NCBI GenBank assembly: GCA_945643635.1
Contig: CALZFC010000018.1
Location: forward strand, 4,342,501 to 4,406,500
DNA from: Allodiplogaster sudhausi
Lineage: Eukaryota > Nematoda > Chromadorea > Rhabditida > Diplogasteridae
Length of the DNA: 64,000 nt
Reading direction: 5' to 3'
Positions 22,927-36,792 of the stretch are shown here, in pieces. The notes under the pieces were generated by a model. That model was given only the letters and a program-made list of their open reading frames with translations, did no database searches and was not told the DNA's origin. The first letter of the stretch is position 1. Each line of letters starts with the position of its first letter. A program made the position numbers and the translations under genes.

Positions 22927-22999
22927 CGACCCTGGCAGGACTCGAACCTGCAATCTTCGGCTCCGGAAACCGACGCCTTATCCATTAGGCCACAGGGCC
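22927..22999 (-). tRNA. tRNA-Arg (anticodon CCG)
   Basis: 73-nt tRNA on the minus strand with a 7-bp acceptor stem GGCCCTG/CAGGGTC (one G-U), D stem GCCT/AGGC, anticodon stem TCGGT/GCCGA, loop TTCCGGA with anticodon CCG, T stem GCAGG/CCTGC and loop TTCGAGT. Discriminator base is G. A T5 run lies just downstream, a good Pol III terminator. Best preserved of the local copies. Confidence 0.93.
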
Positions 23000-23129
23000 A
23001 CGGATTACAACCTTGAATAACAACTTCTAACCTTAATTCTATAATGCTATCAAGCGCAGGTTTTTTACTTATAGTTATTCATATTTATGCACCGTTCCGT
23101 TAATAAGTCCGTAATTGCTCGACAATGAG

Positions 23130-23370
23130 AGCCAGAAAGAGAGACGGATAAAGATAGAGAGGAAAAGCGAAACGGTGAAAGATAACGAAGGAGAGAGAGA
23201 GGAAGAAGAGAAATTGGGAGAGAGATAGAGAGGAATACAAAAAGAGAGACTGAGACAGAGAGAGACGGAAAGAGATAGAGCAGAAGATAGAGATTGGAAG
23301 AGAGAGTGGGATGGAGGGAGAGAAAAGAGACGGAGAGGAGAGAGAGAGAACGAGAGAGAGAGAGAGAAAC
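23130..23370. repeat. GA-rich tract
   Basis: Imperfect GA/GACAGAGA repeats between the first tRNA-Arg and the broken copy. Similar tracts lie beside the later tRNA copies, so the tract is part of the repeated unit. Confidence 0.75.
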
Positions 23371-23459
23371 AAGGCAATGAAATTGGGAGAGCCAGTTGAA
23401 TAGCGAAAAAATGCAATTCGAAATACCTCGACGAAAAGTCTGTAGTACTGAAAAAATTT

Positions 23460-23546
23460 CGACCCTGGCAGGACTCGAACCTGCAATCTTCGGCTCCGGA
23501 AATGTGCCACGCGCAGCCTCCAGCAGAGTCGGCAATGCGCCACGGC
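23460..23546 (-). pseudogene. Broken tRNA-Arg copy
   Basis: The 3' half (T arm, variable loop, 3' side of the anticodon arm, to about 23503) matches the neighbouring tRNA-Arg genes exactly. After tccggaa the sequence switches to unrelated bases up to a gccacggcc end, so the D arm and the 5' anticodon strand are lost. It cannot fold as a tRNA. Confidence 0.8.
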
Positions 23547-23901
23547 CAAAGCCCTGAAAGGCCATACACTATCATCTACAGTAAGAAACTGATATGATTG
23601 AGAAGAATATAAACAGGATGAGTCAGAGCAACGTTTTTAGTAACACATTTATCATCCATACATCTTTCTATGTTAGCTGCATATCATTGAAGACATTTCG
23701 AATGCCCTATCGGCAGCAAGTTGACATGTTTTTGCTAATGTATGAGCGTTATTGGCAATACATGCCTTCAGTTAATTTCATGTTGAAATAAATGAGCAAA
23801 TAAATAAATAGATAAATAAGAAGAAAATATAGATATGATAGATATAACTGCCTAACCATGAGGACTCGCTCGCCAGCCGAGATCAGCACTCGTCCGTCGC
23901 G

Positions 23902-25137
23902 TCATTCCTTGACCTCGCAACAGAAAGCGATATTCATACTCGATGGCCATAAAAACGTCGGCCAATTGCCCGGTCGGCGACACCCAAAGAACTCGCAAGC
24001 ACCGCGTGTTTCACGACTGCGCCTAACGCGGCCGCCAAATATGGCAAGAGGCTCAAAGTCCCTAAGGGAAATGAGGCCAGTTCTCCAATACCGAAGATGC
24101 CTCGGAACGTCGACTCGGCGTCTTTGCCAAGTGCCGTCGTCGTCAAGGTAGACCAAGTCGTGTCCGTCCATGAAGGACTTCATGCGACGCGTCTCGGCCA
24201 CGATGCGTCGCATGTCCTCGAGTGGCGTAGTTTCGCTGCAGAAGACGCAGTCCACCTCCTCCACCCAGCCTCTTCCTTCACGACGAATCCGGAACCTCTT
24301 GATGACGTGGTAGTTACTCGCCTCGAGATAGTAGCCAGACACCAGAAAGACGTAGTACTCTTCATCAGAAGAAGATTGGTCTTCCTTGAGGAACACCATT
24401 GCATAGTGCGTACATGGGCCGCCCATGCTGAGCCGGTCACTGCACGGGAAGCATTCAACGTCACCGTCAAAGAGTGGGGATGATGAGACAGCTTGATGAA
24501 TCCTGATTGTGGACTTGTCAACAAAGTCTTCGACGGCGAAGAGACGCGTCGCGGTCGCGAACGCGGCCGCCGGTTTGTTGGGCGCGAATGCTGAGAGCCC
24601 ACAAGTCGCATGCCTTGTCGGCGATGAAGTCAGGTCGGCAAGCGGAGTTATGAAGTACTCGTAGGTCTAGAAAAAAATATAAAGTCAACTGTGATCGCAC
24701 TGGCGGCGGTCTCCCTCTATCGTCTGTATGTACACCTGTCTAATCTTACTGCTTCTCACTCTTTCACTGAACTCACCGAACATTGCTCTGCCTGTTACTT
24801 GCTAACAAAAAAAACCCTTGTCACAACTTAACCGCCATTGATTACTTGTACGACAGAGAGATCATTAATTGCGGAAGAAGAAAAAACCGCGAAGAAAAAA
24901 GATCTGACCAAGGTGTATATCGCAAATGGAACGAGTGGCAGCGGTGGCGGGCAGTCGGCGTCGTAGCGAAGTGCCGCAGACGGAAAGATGCCACTTCTCT
25001 CCGCGTTGTATTCGTCGACGGCGGTTGCTGACGCCGAGATGCCACAGGATCGCGTGCTCCGAGACGGCGAGCACCGACTCCTCGCCGTGACTTGTAGATG
25101 TCGAGGCAATCGGCTGCAGATAGCGCAGCAGAGTCAT
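23902..25137 (-). CDS. Unrecognised two-exon protein
   Basis: Two exons, 24909-25137 and 23902-24666, give about 330 aa. I do not recognise the family. Exon 1 starts MTLLRYLQPIASTS, 3 bases after an aacgtagtccgagaccaa leader that follows a tttcag acceptor. Exon 2 is a fully open 255 codons with balanced composition. It has acidic patches (KEDQSSSDEEYYVF, DGHDLVYLDDDGTWQ), several cysteines, and ends AFCCEVKE. Codon use is GC-rich at third positions, unlike surrounding noncoding DNA, which supports coding. The junction is phase 0 on both sides (ACCTTG|gtcaga, ctag|ACC). Exon 1 needs one base removed near 25030 to join its two well-formed halves (ILWHLGV and TAVDEYNAERSG). No signal peptide or membrane span is evident. 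Confidence 0.6.
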
Positions 25138-26302
25138 TTTGGTCTCGGACTACGTTCTGAAATCGTTCGTTAAAATATGCTCAAATGAGAGGTTGACCGA
25201 CTTTGCCCACTTTGAGACATACGCCAGTTTATATTGCAAGTGGAAGAACCAAAACATCTACTTGTCAGCTCCTTTAGCAGTTTCTCAGATCTCTTCTCCT
25301 AATTAGCACCCACTCAAATTACTTGTCACCACGCACTTCATCAGTCATGCCACTCTGACGGTCCGAGTGAAGTGGTGAGCAATCACAAAGTGTCTTATAT
25401 CTACTAGCTCAACAGTTTTGAATGTCAAGCCAGAACTTCTAACTCCCTCGAAAATTAGAGGTTTCGATTTTTATAGCCACAAGAAAAAAAAACAGGAATC
25501 GCTTCCGAATCAGCTCAGAAGTTCCCTTTTTAATCAATCAATTGGTTCATGTCAGAAAATTAATATGTTAATACGTGATTTCAAGGTAGCACAACGGGAC
25601 AGTGCCAAGGTGAAGGCTACAGACGCGAGAAGTGAACGACGTCCGCCGCGTCTGAATCGAAAGAGGACACACCGAGTCCATGCTTGGGGGGAAGGGACAT
25701 AAGGCGAGAATGACGGCATTGACCCAAATGCCCCCCCCCCTACTCACCCGACACAACTGTATGCATTGCGAAAGCGGAGAGAGAAGAGCGGCCGACCACC
25801 TCCGACGGAGGAAGTGGAGAAGAATGAAAGCGAAGCAGATTGACAGTGACAAGAAGACGAGGACAATAAGAACATTTCAACTGTAATGAACAGCTGCTGA
25901 TAACACGAACTTAATTAATTGCACGTAACAATAAGATTACCGCTTTCGTTTTCCTTTTAGTTTTTTTCTCTTCCAAACTAAGACATATTTTTTCGTGCTA
26001 TGCCCAAGGATCAGAGGCGTTCCACGTGAAAGAGGGACATGCACTCATACAACGAGATCAGTTTACTCTTCCCGATAAGTGGAGTGAGGTGGACTCCATG
26101 GCTTTAGCAATCTTCTCGAAGAAAACACAAGAAATATGTTCTTATCAAAGATTTATATTCATACACACTCCTACATCTACATATATTTTTTTAATATGCA
26201 GCAGCACCTAAATATTTTGTCCATAATTACAGTACGAGACAAAGAACAAGAACATCAGCAACAAGATATGTGGCTCAAGTCAACGAGAGCGCAAAAAGCT
26301 TG
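25138..26302. other. Intergenic, no supported gene
   Basis: Contains a C10 run near 25731 and a stretch at 25600-25740 that resembles 22560-22720 (shared cgtctgaatcgaaag followed by GGA), a diverged dispersed repeat. No exon chain seen. Confidence 0.5.
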
Positions 26303-26375
26303 CGACCCTGGCAGGACTCGAACCTGCAATCTTCGGCTCCGGAAACCGACGCCTTATCCATCGGGCCACAGGGCC
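26303..26375 (-). tRNA. tRNA-Arg (anticodon CCG)
   Basis: 73 nt, same fold as the copy at 22927 with anticodon CCG. The D stem is GCCC/AGGC with one weak pair. A T5 run follows on the minus strand. The head of a repeated unit of about 400 bp. Confidence 0.88.
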
Positions 26376-26509
26376 ACGGATTACGCGAATTATAGTGAAT
26401 TTTATTTAATCACGCTTTCTGCTGGTGTCTTTCTTACAGTTTTCCGAATTTGTACACACTAGTTATTTCGTATTTGTCTGAAAATGAGAGCTTGTAAGGA
26501 CAGCAAGAG

Positions 26510-26615
26510 AGAGCAAGAGAGAGAGAGGGAGAAAGAGAGAGAGGGGTAGCTGACAGAGGTAGAGAGTGAGACAGACAGAGACAAAGAGAAAGACAGAGAG
26601 AGAGGGATAGAGAGA
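26510..26615. repeat. GA-rich tract of tRNA unit
   Basis: GA repeat with GACAGACAGAGAC interruptions, matched by 26905-27040 in the next unit. Confidence 0.75.
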
Positions 26616-26702
26616 GAGTTAATGCAACTTTTGGAACAAAGAAAAGAGCTAGAAATTGCATGATGAAACGGCTCAAGTCATTGGTAAGTGCCAAAAAGAG
26701 TT

Positions 26703-26775
26703 CGACCCTGGCAGGACTCGAACCTGCAATCTTCGGCTCCGGAAACCGACGCCTTATCCATGAGGCCACAAGGCC
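26703..26775 (-). tRNA. tRNA-Arg (anticodon CCG), slightly diverged
   Basis: 73 nt with anticodon CCG. The acceptor stem is GGCCTTG, so one more wobble pair than the 22927 copy. D stem GCCT/AGGC is intact, with tcatgg in the D loop. T5 follows. Probably still foldable. Confidence 0.82.
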
Positions 26776-26904
26776 ACGATTTATGAGAATTATAGCGAAT
26801 TTTATTTAATCACTCTTTCTGCTGGTGTCTTTCTTACAGTTTTCCGAATTTATGCACCACTAGGTATTCCGTATTTGTCTGAAAATGAGAGCCTGTAAGG
26901 ACAG

Positions 26905-26993
26905 CAAGAGAGAGTAAGAGATAAAGAGGGAGAAAAAGAGAGAAGTAGCTGACAGAGGTAGAAAGCGAGACAGACAGAGACAAAGAGAAAGAC

Positions 26994-27039
<46 letters not shown>

Positions 27040-27045
27040 GAGAGA
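26905..27045. repeat. GA-rich tract of tRNA unit
   Basis: Counterpart of the 26510-26615 tract, expanded to a pure (GA)n run near 27000-27035. Confidence 0.75.
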
Positions 27046-27130
27046 GTTGATACAAATTCTAGAACAAAGAAAAACAGCTAGAAATGGGAGGATGAAACGG
27101 CTCAAATCATTGGTAAGTGCAAAAGGATTT

Positions 27131-27203
27131 CGACCCTGGCAGGACTCGAACCTGCAATCTTCGGCTCCGGAAACCGACTCCTTATCCATTGGGCCACAGG
27201 GCC
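27131..27203 (-). tRNA. tRNA-Arg (anticodon CCG), weakened D stem
   Basis: 73 nt with anticodon CCG and intact acceptor, anticodon and T stems. The 3' side of the D stem reads AGGA instead of AGGC, so a G-A mismatch is present, and the downstream T run is only four long. May be inactive. Confidence 0.75.
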
Positions 27204-30994: not shown

Positions 30995-33900
30995 ATGTCT
31001 CTTTCCCTCTGCTTCATCTCACATAAATAAGTAAATAAATATATATGATCAATCTTGTCAAAAGATATTGTCTACTAGCCGCAATCGAATTCGCATTTCC
31101 GCGAGAACCAGAAGAAAAGATCTCAGAGACGAAGAACCAGGGAATCGCACCTAAATTGCCATTATTATCAATTATCATTTTAAAAGTATTATCTTCATTT
31201 TTTGTTTACGATTTAAAATACAAAATACCGTAGTTAAAGAAAATATTAATACAAACCGGGTCCCGTGGCGAAAGAGACGACAAATAAGAGAACGAAGATG
31301 ATAGCGAGGTAGGATGACCACTGATTCGAGTTTGGCTGCGTCTCGTCCGGATTCTTGCCAGCCTAAATAGCAGCTGTGATATATGTATGTATGTAGTGCC
31401 ACGAGAATAGTCAGACCTGTTCTATAGGCACATACATATTCATATGAATGTACATACGTATGTACATATTTTCTACATCATTTGCCCAGTCAAATCGCAT
31501 TTCTCTTCTCGTGGAATACGCACGGAAGTGTAAAACAAAACGAAGCTAATCTGCGGATGAAACACTGTTTCTCTATCTGATCCAGATCCTTAGTCCCGGG
31601 CCCCTGTGCCACTTAGACCCTTCTGACCCCTAGCAAGTTAGACCCCTTCTAGCACCTCTTGACAGTTAGAACCCTTCTAGCACCTCTTGCCAGTTAGACC
31701 CCTTCTAGCACCTCTTGCCAGTTAGACCCCTTCTAGCACCTCTTGCCAGTTAGACCCCTCTCCTCTCCAACCTCAAAGAGTGAGAGCGATACGACGATGC
31801 AGACAGAGCAGAAGAGCATGCCAGTCAGCCCGATCAGATGCAGAGAACGACGGCCAAACTTGGGGTGGTCGACCTGGTAAAACATTTTTTAACGATCAAT
31901 ATACTAGACGTAAAAGATTTCGTTACCATTACAAATGCGTTTAAAAAATACACTCAATCTTAAAATTTTTTTAAAAATTGAATCGTGACGTTTCACAAAA
32001 CAATAAAACGTCGCGAAACTTGGGGAAGAAAATTGTTTATGAAAGTACGTTTTAAAAATCAATAAATGAAAAGCCGAAAAAAACTTACCAGCCAGACTGA
32101 GACGACTGTCATGACGACGTTGACGAATCCCATGCCAATTGTCGCGTAGAAGGGCGCGAGTCCCGTGAGGCCAGCGCCCTTGAAGATGACCGTCGAGTAG
32201 AACATTGCAACGTTGATGCCTAAGACACTTAAATATCGATTGAATTTTACATGATTACCGTAATCAAACAAACGCCTCGGGACACCTCGGGACCCTGACC
32301 AGAGAGTTGTTGACTGAGCATCATCATAACAGCGATGGAGAGAGGCCAGCGGAGGGCGCCCTTGAACATGTCGGCCATGCTCACCTGATACACGAGGATA
32401 TCATCGGATTGTATCTTTATTAATTTACTATTTTACTTATTGTGATTTCTTTATTGAAATATTAATTAACATTTACATGATCTTTTCTCGTTGCTAATTT
32501 TCATGATGATATTTAATGTTAGTAAAAATACAATTTCCTCCAACCTTGGGCACAGAGCGCACGGCGCGCGCCTCTTCTTTGATTCCTTCCAATTCGATGA
32601 AGACCAAAAAAAGAAAAAAAAAAAACAGAAAAATGCATTCATGTTCGATGGAAATAAACCATAGCAACAATTATTTTAATTCTAATTTTGAATACAAAAA
32701 GATCAATCAATGATTGAAAAAAAAATAATTAGACAATTTTTTTCTTCACACAACGGCATAAATACATATTTAAATAAAATTATTACATCATCCTTGGCCC
32801 GGAGTTTCTTCAAGTCCGCCTCAGCCCTTTCAGTCTGGTTCCGTACGACGAGGGAGAACTTGGGCGATTCGGGGCAGAAGGGAAGAGTGGCCAGCTGCAG
32901 CAGCGACGGCACCACGGTGAAGGCTGGGAAATCATAGAAAACTTGGCCATTAAAGGAGGGCGACCATCGAAAATATTTTGTGGGATTTAAAATTGGCAGG
33001 CGTCAATGAGGATGCCTACTGCTAAAGAGAACACTGTAATTCAAACATGCATTAATTATTTTCGGGCATTCTCCTCCTTTAATGATATTCCTTCAAGTTG
33101 ATATTAGACTTTTTTCATACTCTGTAATGTCATACATGCTGATGTTTGACTCTCAAAAATCCAAGATCGCTACAAACTTCACACACTGGCAAGAAATGTA
33201 TGTTTCGCACAATAAATATTAAGTTTAAATTCAAACACTTCTCGGTCTCACCAAGAATAAGCGGCCAGCGGCTTTCGCTCCCCAGAAGATACGGTAGCCC
33301 GAGGACTTGCGACACGAGAATGGCGATGGTTAGGAGGAGTTGGTTGAGGGAGCCGATTGTTCCGCGAAGGTTGACTGGAGACACTTCCGTCAAGTACATG
33401 GGCACTAGGCCGGAGGAGAGTCCTGGCATTGAAATATGTATTTGATATTTGTAGAAGTAAAATGTAAAAAAAAACTGTCTTTCAGTGGATTATTTAGCTT
33501 TATCCTTCTTTAAGTCATTCGTTATTAATTCTACAATTTCGCCCGCCATTCATCTTTAAAATCTTCATAATTAACATGATTTTGTATGTTTTTAAAGGTG
33601 GTACATAAACGGCGTTTTTAGAAATGGTCATATTTCGTCTACAAAGAAATACTTATTTATATTTAAAAAAGGGGGAAAACAAATCAAAACGGACCACAAT
33701 TAAACCCGATGACCAATCTGCCAGCAATAATCATCGGGTAGACATTGACACTCTTGGCCAGCCTCATCAGAGCGGCCGCAAGGAAGGCGAAGACGTTGTT
33801 GAGTAGCAAAGCGCCCTTGAATAATGTCTAATATTTCCTTTAATTTTTTATCATATAAATAGCGTTTACAATATGCACATACATATGTATAAGCATAGTT

Positions 33901-36095
33901 TTTTTTTAACTAAGACTCTTTATATGCATATTAGTTTTTTTTTGTAATTATTTTCAAATTAATCACTTTTATCACTTTTTCCAATATAGTCTTGTAAGAC
34001 ATTTGATAATGCTTAGCAGAAAAAAATAAACATATTAAAGATGAACCAACTTTCCGGCCAAACTTGTCCGCAGCCTTCCCCGACAGTAGTCCACCAAGCA
34101 TGCCCCCGACGGAGAAGATGGCCACGGCGACCGACCTTCAAGTCTTATGTTCAAAGTTTAATTTCCACAATAATTGCAGCAATTTAGATAACAGTTTCAG
34201 CATTCGATAGTTATTTTATTCACCAGTATTACAAGTTACATAAATATTAATAAGTTTACAATATGTACAGTCCCGCCCAGGATCTTGGTACCAAGGACGC
34301 GTCGGACGAGTCGGACGCGTCCAAATGCATCCTCGTTCATAACTATTGTTCTAGGAAAAACTAAAATATTCTAAATGGTACATTAGTTTTCTTATAGAGA
34401 ACGGATGCTACTATTAAAAATTCAATAACTTTTTATCATTTGATAAGAAGTTATCAGTTTTTGCTAATAAAAATTTCATTTCAAATTTTTTTAAACGAAA
34501 TTTCTCCTGTACCATAATTTTGTCTCTACACACATCCCAAAATTATAAAATTAAAGATTGTATCATTGATAACGGAAATCGATAAATGAGAACTTATCAC
34601 GCATGTTCATATGATGTAAAGATTCGCCTGACGATTCTGAATCTAATTATGTAATTAGTTTTCAACAGAAAGTGCCGGTTAACAATGTATTTTTGATTGT
34701 GAGTACTTTGCAAGACTTTCTTCAGGATTCCCCATTATCTTGGTCTTTGTCAAAATTTTGGTATGATGCGTCCAAATCTAGGTTGCTGCGCTAGCATTGA
34801 TACTCAGAAAAGTAGCGCGCTCCCTTTTCGTCTTCGGTTTAATTACCCAAGTTTGAGGTAGCGAAATAGCACAGGCAGAGAAAAAAGGGTTAGGCCCTGC
34901 CCCCTCGGCCTGCGAGGCCTCCCTGCCCTGTTCTTTCTGAAGAAAGTCTTGCAAAGTACCCACAATCAAAAATACATTGTTAACCGGCACATTCTGTTGA
35001 AAACTGATTACAGAATTAGATTCAGAATCGTAAGGCGAATCTCTACATCATATGAACATGCGGGATAAGTTCTCATTTATCGATTTCCGTTATCAATGAT
35101 AGAATCTTTAATTTTATAATTTGGGGATGTGTGTAGAGACTAAATAATGGTACAGGAGAAATTTCGTTTAAAAATATTTGAAATGAAATTTTTTATTAGC
35201 AAAAACTGATAACTTCTTATCAAATGATAAAAAGTTATCGATTTTTTAACAGCAGCATCCGTACTCTATAAGCAACCTAATGTACCATTTAAAATATTTT
35301 AGTTTTTCTTAGAACAATAGTTATGAACGAGGATGCATTTGGACGCGTCCGACTCGTCCGACGCGTCCTTGGTACCAAGATCCTGGGCGGGACTGTACAT
35401 GCAAATATGAAGAAAATTTACACAAAAAAAAATCTAAAAATACGTCCCGAAGAAATCTAACCACGCGAGATCCGCCTCCTCCTTCGTCAGCTTGCTGCCA
35501 AACATGTCCTCGTGCGAGTCGACAAAGAATTGAGTTATGAGCTTAAAATTATAACCATTTATTTTAACATACATACATAAATACAAATAAAATTTAATTT
35601 GATAAAAAAATTATAAAAAATTAATTTAAAAAAAAACTCTGGATAAAAAAATTCTCAAAAAAATTTATACTAGCAAAAATTCTATACTCAAAAAATGTAC
35701 CTGGCCAGGCGCATTGATGCATCCGAGGTGGAAGCCAAACTGAAACGAGCTCAGAGTCACAGCGAAGACAGCGAATGCCAACGCAGCCGTTACCTTCAAC
35801 GAGAAAATCGATTAATTAATTTCTTGATAGCTAATTAATCAATTTTGCTCGAGTTAATTTATTGCTGACTTTTAAAATAAAATTTTTAGCAACAACAAAA
35901 AAAAACTACGTAGATATATTTTCCTTCCCCAAATGTTTTTATAGCTTTTTCTAACTACTCGTCTACCCACCATCGCAATAGTGCATATATTTCGTCAACA
36001 AGTCAAAGTTGGCCAAAACTACAGTAACCCACCTTGTCGCTAGTCGCTTTCCATTCGTCGACCGTCAAGGGAATGCTCGATTCGTGGTCGGCCAT
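30484..36095 (-). CDS. Facilitated glucose transporter, copy A
   Basis: Class I GLUT/SLC2A-type sugar carrier (major facilitator, 12 spans, plasma membrane), 500 aa. Exons: 36033-36095, 35701-35793, 35462-35541, 34051-34135, 33695-33815, 33252-33422, 32787-32923, 32545-32604, 32300-32384, 32089-32219, 31772-31873, 31257-31362, 31080-31150, 30723-30844, 30484-30559. They sum to 1503 nt in frame. Signatures: DKFGRK after TM2, [31 protein letters not shown] (about 220), SQQLSGIN in TM7 (about 296, the class I QLS motif), HPKFGRR (about 346), GPGAIPWF (about 410), FVPETKG near the C terminus. Oddities: the donor after 31080 is GC, and the acceptor before exon 8 (base 32605) reads TG instead of AG with no in-frame alternative, so processing may be impaired. 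Intron 3 carries a foldback element. Paralogue of the gene at 43626-50038. Confidence 0.95.
30885..31010. repeat. (CT)n tract in transporter A intron
   Basis: CT-rich on plus, hence GA-rich in the sense strand, between exons 13 and 14. Confidence 0.8.
31590..31757. repeat. 28-bp minisatellite, transporter A intron 11
   Basis: Five to six copies of gttagaccccttctagcac plus ctcttgcca, the central ones nearly perfect. The same family, more diverged, lies in the corresponding intron of copy B (44590-45230). Confidence 0.88.
34268..35395. mobile_element. Foldback MITE (mariner-like ends) carrying SL1
   Basis: Inverted arms 34268-34724 and 34938-35395 match over about 457 bp with scattered differences. 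The ends are CAGTCCCGCCCAGG and CCTGGGCGGGACTG, flanked on both sides by TA, as expected for Tc1/mariner-type insertions. The central 213 bp (34725-34937) is unique and much more GC-rich than the arms. It holds the SL1 sequence on plus. No transposase frame is present, so the element is nonautonomous. It sits in intron 3 of transporter copy A. Superfamily assignment rests on TA and CAGT only. Confidence 0.9.
34836..34932 (+). ncRNA. SL1 spliced-leader RNA-like sequence
   Basis: Bases 34836-34857 match the 22-nt nematode SL1 at every position (GGTTTAATTACCC then AAGTTTGAG) and are followed at once by GTA, the donor that an SL RNA needs. Beyond the donor, 34858-34932 has pairing potential (GGCAG/CTGCC; GCCT-GCG-AGGC) but does not resemble the C. 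elegans SL1 RNA body, and I see no AATTTTTGG-type Sm site. It may be an atypical SL RNA gene or a pseudogene captured by the foldback element. Confidence 0.6.
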
Positions 36096-36792
36096 CGCCT
36101 TTATCTCTTCTACAAATTACAGATCTTGGTTGCCAGCAACTTCCTTATATTTGCGCTATAATAATTAATATATTCGCGTAAGATTCTAAAAATGGTCTGG
36201 TACAAATATATACATATATATATTTTTTTCAAATAATAAAACCAAAAGTTTTTCTAACGAGACGTCAGCAAAAAAAAAGATGATGATCATCGTATTTCTA
36301 AAGGAGAACATGCAAAGTTTGTCTTTCTCTCCAACCTTGCACCACTCTCTCGCCTGACACTCATTTAATTGGGGAGTACTAAAAATATTTTTGCTGATAA
36401 ACATAAACATATAATTTAATACATTCATTGTACAATATTACGCTTTCCAGGGAAACGAAATATATGTGGCAGAGATTTAGGAAGAAAAAAATTGAAAGAA
36501 TGACAGTGGCGTGGGAGTTGATTGTGAATACGTAGAGAGCAAACAAGGACCAGCACGGCAGACGAAGTCCGGTGGAGACAATGAGATGAATGAACAAACG
36601 GAGGCTCTCCCCCCTCTCTCTCTCTATCTCACTCTCTCTCTCTCTCACACTCTCTATCTCTCTCTCGCTTTCTCTGTCTCCCTCTCTCTCTCTCACTTAC
36701 TCTACCTCTCTCTATCTCTGTTTCTCTCTTTCTGTCGCTCTTTGTTTCTTTCTCTATCTTTCTCTTTCTCTTTATCTCTCTCTCCTGATCTC

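Follow-up and report, generated by a model that had tools for sequence, protein, structure and literature searches.

An SL1-led block of low variation in the core of a foldback DNA element family of Allodiplogaster sudhausi

The window analysed here, a 64,000-nucleotide stretch of Allodiplogaster sudhausi DNA, contains a foldback DNA element of 1128 bp at positions 34268-35395. Its ends could be placed exactly at 34268 and 35395 (CAGTCCCGCC...GGCGGGACTG), and the flanks (TATGTA on the left, TACATG on the right) leave a TA target duplication on each side, at 34266-34267 and 35396-35397. The left arm spans 34268-34725 on the plus strand, with the terminus CAGTCCCGCCCAGGATC, while the right arm occupies 34937-35395 on the minus strand, with the terminus GATCCTGGGCGGGACTG. 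Repeat comparison within the window returned two inverted pairs, 34263-34495 with 35168-35400 at 92% and 34469-34725 with 34937-35193 at 95%. Aligned against each other, the two arms of approximately 460 bp are 95.3% identical, and the TA-flanked foldback structure proposed in the initial annotation of this DNA therefore stands. An LTR pair is absent, as the region 33500-36200 holds inverted arms and no long direct repeats. Tc1/mariner-like MITEs and foldbacks are recognised by a CAG terminus, a TA duplication, long inverted arms and a lack of coding capacity. The window element, in which no coding capacity is visible, is like them in all four respects and unlike them in having a constrained SL1-led core; it is almost certainly one copy of a Tc1/mariner-like foldback of about 1.13 kb with TA duplication. 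Elsewhere in the window, four tRNA genes at Rfam gathering score lie on the minus strand at 22927-27203 (about 4.3 kb), and long (CT)n/(GA)n stretches, which read as SLSLSL frames, are numerous.

The core of the element (34726-34936, 211 nt) holds the 22-nt spliced leader SL1, GGTTTAATTACCCAAGTTTGAG, which is exact at 34836-34857 on the plus strand and is the sole match in the window at up to three mismatches. No match was obtained in 100 shuffles of the window, and a chance occurrence was rejected on this ground. GTA follows directly, so that leader and donor together cover 34836-34860, as had been read from the start. Upstream of SL1, the plus-strand stretch 34726-34835 differs between subfamilies (pairwise diversity 0.10-0.18 in 39 copies sampled through their arms). 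Downstream, the donor and a conserved stretch, GTAGCGAAATAGCACAGGCAGAG plus an A-run, extend over 34858-34886 (+), the A-run of the window copy being one A shorter than the consensus, and the GC-rich remainder of the core, 34887-34936 (+), is under weaker constraint (diversity 0.08, then 0.14).

A sugar-transporter gene is placed on the minus strand at 31904-35900, with Pfam Sugar_tr (PF00083) matches in two frames, 32059-32400 and 33130-33489. Exon-like frames flank the element at approximately 33.3 and 34.1 kb on one side and 35.5 and 35.8 kb on the other, those at 34.1, 35.5 and 35.8 kb having been judged by eye. With such frames on both sides, the element seems to be intronic, its SL1 lying antisense to the gene.

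The window element resembles nematode SL1 RNA genes (RF00198), including the canonical genes of this genome, in its exact 22-nt SL1 and GT donor, whereas its body is unrelated and has neither an Sm site nor a 3' hairpin after SL1. The impression recorded in the initial annotation, that no obvious Sm site follows the donor, was borne out by a plus-strand scan in which neither purine-A-T(3-6)-G nor AATTTTGG turned up between 34858 and 35100, and with the 3' hairpin also missing a complete SL RNA gene was rejected. The core does contain one AATTTTGG, which spells the canonical Sm site, at 34754-34761, but it precedes SL1 by about 75 nt, whereas in an SL RNA the site would have to follow the leader. 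The SL RNA stem-loops that had been envisaged for 34836-34937 did not appear: the fold of this stretch is no better than that of shuffled sequences (z -0.25), and an alignment fold gave nothing resembling SL RNA, and a conserved RNA fold of the core was accordingly rejected. The Rfam SL1 score of the locus, 20.2 against a gathering threshold of 75, decides nothing alone, because canonical SL1 genes of the same genome also fall under gathering in the three sampled pieces of their array (L039-L041). Finally, no upstream element common to the window family and the canonical SL1 gene was found, the best ungapped match being equalled by 30 of 300 shuffles, and a promoter box shared with that gene was rejected.

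Across the 352-Mb genome (382 contigs), SL1 occurs at up to two mismatches in 2763 places, compared to none for a reversed control. The first 100 places listed are all exact and lie on contigs C1, C4 and C5, with 62 of them in C1:10.148-10.204 Mb, a stretch sampled by the three pieces of 9.9 kb named above. Here, on a contig other than that of the window, the canonical SL1 RNA genes, whose body includes the Sm site AAATTTTGG and a 3' hairpin, form a tandem array of 460-bp units in which further SL1-bearing repeats are interspersed. At Rfam gathering, L039-L041 gave no 5S gene, but for this genome the threshold says little, since the canonical SL1 genes were missed too. The other 38 of the first 100 places listed are dispersed, and context is known for 31: 21 are copies of the window family (two by flanking pattern alone), four belong to a second TIR element, four are LTR-like, one is a family-2 insert and one is without assignment. 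Thirty of these 31 dispersed matches hence sit in repeats that look mobile, the counts per family resting on samples, and SL gene counts based on the 22-mer alone overcount.

The core, initially described as the only unique part of the element, is itself repeated: a core search gave 701 first-look candidates, and all 40 that were scored match. Core and arms both recur in the genome, and a lone captured pseudogene was rejected. The idea that such elements had spread SL RNA genes or pseudogenes through introns holds in so far as the element is repeated and has spread SL1 with its donor, in the window apparently into an intron, but with Sm site and 3' hairpin missing, the view that the copies are SL RNA genes is not supported. 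The pattern GTCTTC-N22-GTAGCGA, which does not require SL1, occurs in 167 places (control 9); setting aside four unrelated ones among the first 100 listed leaves 96, of which 79 have the exact SL1. Sampling independent of SL1 was based on an arm pattern with 428 places (control 0), for which every listed place on contigs C1-C13 was taken, giving 54 loci, 14 of them already known from SL1 searches; listed places on C15 and C16 lie outside this sample. A whole core is present in 39 of the 54 loci, with SL1 exact in 30, and the remaining 15 have truncated cores, other cargo or inserts in SL1 (L043, L082, L083 and, by its 3' end, L060). In L071 and L072, window-family arms enclose a different cargo in place of the SL1 core, of about 1 kb in L071. 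In 12 of the 15 loci without a whole core, visual inspection of the longest frames revealed no DDE transposase of an autonomous relative. Both ends could be read in 39 loci, 35 of which have TA on both sides (31 of 33 among those with a whole core). Arm identity has a median of 0.966 within a copy (36 copies) compared to 0.886 between copies (200 random pairs), and the arms evolve in concert. Compared with other SL1 loci (L004, L006-L008), the core matches over only 24-26 nt at SL1, and its body differs from that of the canonical SL1 genes; neither comparison yielded a source for the core.

Variation among the 39 copies drops sharply in a 52-nt block made up of SL1, its GT donor and roughly 27 nt beyond. 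The arms have pairwise diversities of 0.134 and 0.144; within the core, the values are 0.099 and 0.123 between -111 and -22, and 0.181 in the 22 nt before SL1, the highest of the core regions measured. Diversity is 0.021 in SL1, 0.023 in the next 22 nt and 0.006 in the next 8 nt, after which it rises to 0.082 and 0.136. When the element is divided into 22-nt windows, the 15 of lowest diversity begin without exception at positions from -1 to +32. Seventeen copies found earlier through exact SL1, including that of the window, had given 0.004 for the 30 nt after SL1 compared to 0.12 for the arms. Shared variants, defined as a minor base in at least three copies, were counted in the 36 copies left after removal of three with damaged arms (L076, L084, L090): SL1 and the following 30 nt have 0 in 52 sites, compared to 30 of 163 elsewhere in the core (p=1.5e-4) and 185 of 909 in the arms (p=1.5e-5), counts limited by few subfamilies, related copies and arms in concert, so that arm sites are not independent and the comparison within the core deserves more trust. 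All 39 copies gave 0/52 against 35/163 in the rest of the core, and the 23 copies left without the 13 found through SL1 gave 0/52 against 25/163 (p=8.7e-4), while at a two-copy threshold the block has three shared sites of 52 and the rest of the core 53 of 163. The longest run without a shared variant measures 54 nt and begins at -1, the base before SL1, the next longest being 32 nt. Shared sites number 15 of 48 just upstream of the block and 5 of 30 at +74..+104; the core from -111 to -49 is also poor in them (8/62). When the 36 copies were grouped into seven clusters and the consensuses of the four with at least three copies were compared, 29-54 of about 455 sites per arm differed (approximately 6-12%), and none of the 52 in the block.

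Private variants show a different picture, with two at the 22 sites of SL1 and nine at the 30 sites from +22 to +52, together 11/52 compared to 51/162 elsewhere in the core (p=0.16); the ratio of shared to private is 0:11 in the block and 30:51 in the rest of the core (p=0.014). Since private block mutations are not significantly rarer, the constraint seems to act on the transposing lineage and not on each copy, and copies seem to decay after insertion while the jumping lineage stays unchanged in the block. The label pseudogene alone does not fit well, because SL1 and the 30 nt after it look constrained in the transposing lineage.

SL1 is also carried by elements unrelated to the window family. 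Family 3 (L004, L008, L045, L051) is a 611-bp TIR element with inverted ends of about 56 bp and the same CAG or CTG on both flanks, a 3-bp CWG duplication, in all four copies read; inside it, SL1 is followed by GTA. After SL1, family 3 has an Sm-like ATTGTATTG and a hairpin. Families 2 and 3 have in common a AAACCCCGCCCGACATAGGT-like box at -61..-41 (0 of 300 shuffles), which is absent in the window family. Among LTR-like carriers, L044 (C4:363000-369000) contains two same-strand copies, each with SL1, and the frames between them encode a phlebovirus-type G2 domain (198 bits), with sub-threshold matches to DUF1759 (17.8 bits), Rab3-GAP and tenuivirus also listed. Both Tas of Ascaris and Cer7 of C. 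elegans belong to the Pao type and have a phlebovirus-like env. L006 and L007 have a common LTR-like block of 341 bp in which AATAAA follows SL1. None of the LTR-like copies read has a GT after SL1, so that these carriers are at best a partial parallel to the window family. GTA follows SL1 in three of the dispersed families, as in SL RNA genes. SL1 plus GTA found no match in viral_contigs.

SL1 itself serves as an insertion target. In L043 (C1:9783373 area) and L083 (C6:5303786 area), an insert of 0.9-1.2 kb interrupts the SL1 of the element after GAGGT, and TACCCAAGTTTGAGGT is repeated on the other side of the insert, a 16-nt SL1 duplication with one mismatch in the left copy of each. L082 (C6:4500204 area) has the same 3' junction, and L060 (C1:3778436 area) the same 3' end. 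An SL1-like copy lies inside the inserts of L043, L082 and L083, followed by GTATTTTATT in L043 and L083 and by GTATAACTAC in L082. Judging from these junctions, the inserts of the four loci represent a putative SL1-specific mobile element which, by carrying SL1, would make its own new targets.

The reading that we favour, with a probability of roughly 0.4, is that the transposon captured and kept a candidate SL1-led transcription-start and leader cassette. Transcription of nematode SL RNA reportedly needs internal elements for initiation, as Hannon et al. are said to have found in 1990. The SL exon itself belongs to the internal initiation elements of SL RNA genes. The SL1-led block could thus start transcription unaided and yield an RNA beginning with SL1, whose donor might be joined in cis to an acceptor further downstream. 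The spread of elements that keep the block would be favoured by germline transcription or by SL1-led RNA, either because the locus would become accessible to transposase or because the transcript would be protected from silencing. The border of the block at the very start of SL1 argues for the cassette, as do SL1 plus GTA in the unrelated family 3 and SL1 in the LTR-like repeats of the same genome, where this device may have arisen independently. Against it stand the lack of an Sm site after SL1 and of an upstream box as in the canonical gene, the fold at z -0.25, a shared-versus-private test that reaches only p=0.014 relative to the rest of the core, and the small number of private variants in SL1 (2/22). 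A non-autonomous DNA element, moreover, needs no transcript of its own to move. If the block works, the transposon would have the host trans-splicing leader in its DNA and would gain the leader, and perhaps the cap and a licence as self, without trans-splicing, while SL1 start sites and donors would be scattered through introns. Two questions would then become testable: whether SL1 is sufficient to signal a transcription start in the living worm, and whether it shields transcripts from small-RNA silencing.

The block could instead be a passenger, an SL1-led piece captured from an SL1-bearing locus and left unused, with its low variation due to subfamily exchange or chance. MITEs often carry inert cargo, other cargo does occur on the same arms (L071, L072), and the missing Sm site, the missing promoter match and the small number of subfamilies would all agree with this. 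However, shared sites occur in the core flanks (15/48 upstream, 5/30 at +74..+104) and are absent from the block (0/52), and the border falls on the start of SL1; as the flanks vary and the block does not, capture time alone cannot explain the uniformity, and we regard the passenger account as unlikely. A second possibility, which we consider decidedly improbable, is homogenisation, in which an SL1-specific endonuclease of the SL1-targeting elements would cut the block and repair from other copies would keep it uniform. SL1-targeted inserts are indeed present in the window family, in four of the 54 sampled loci (L043, L083, L082, L060), but conversion should be approximately symmetric about the cut after GAGGT, and the 22 nt before SL1 are the most diverse of the core regions measured (0.181), with a sharp border.

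There is little to be said for a retrocopy, in which SL1 would have arrived on a reverse-transcribed, trans-spliced mRNA and been caught later between the arms. The accessible part of PMC7181701 has its authors proposing the same route for SL1 with Pao elements in Brugia, but an mRNA would join SL1 to any exon, whereas GTA follows it in three dispersed families, and the core has no terminal poly(A) tail. That the copies are dispersed working SL RNA genes making trans-splicing SL1 donors is scarcely credible: exact SL1, GTA donor and high copy number would suit it, but Sm site and 3' hairpin are missing after SL1, canonical genes exist, and private mutations accumulate, so that the host does not visibly maintain single copies, the low Rfam score counting for little as canonical genes are also below the cut-off.

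The cassette reading can be extended to the other carriers, a joint claim that we hold to be rather doubtful. SL1 would then be a portable start-and-leader cassette, taken up separately by several unrelated mobile elements (the Tc1/mariner-like foldback, the TIR element with CWG duplication, the SL1-targeting inserts and the LTR-like elements), whose RNAs would bear the host leader from the outset and be taken for host transcripts; selection on the transposing lineage would maintain the cassette in the foldback family.

The presence of SL1 near LTR retrotransposons has already been published for Brugia malayi, where the accessible part of PMC7181701 counts 120 integral SL1s and places 60 of these no more than 1 kb from Pao. 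As far as that part goes, the Brugia BEL/Pao SL1s are like those described here in being genomic 22-mers outside SL RNA arrays and attached to mobile elements, and L044 looks like an SL1-bearing BEL/Pao element of the Brugia type. The window element, by contrast, is a DNA foldback with TIRs and TA duplications and without LTRs, and its SL1 is internal, with the donor kept and the block constrained. Tm1, a Mutator/foldback of root-knot nematodes, is also a nematode foldback element, with SL1 as a predicted trans-splice acceptor, but the available portion of PMC3169594 reports no SL1 sequence in Tm1 DNA. The open-licence literature searched, as far as its texts were accessible, yielded no description of a MITE or a DNA transposon carrying SL1.

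With regard to the inserts in SL1, the nearest known systems target the same sequence. Spliced-leader-specific non-LTR retrotransposons are said to have been described by Malik and Eickbush in 2000, and such NeSL-type elements are known from PMC4640811, in so far as its text was available. On that basis, the family-2 inserts inside the window-family element are like them in targeting SL1 and unlike them in that no reverse transcriptase was recognised in the few pieces and frames looked at, and the window element itself is not of the NeSL kind. Canonical SL1 exons of the array are likewise interrupted, by an element related to the inserts and at a point different from the site used in L043 and L083. 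In L040 and L041 (C1:10166000-10206466), where the array lies at a contig end, the element that breaks up the SL1 exons is rich in repeats, has an SL1 of its own and recurs at a period of 2728 bp.
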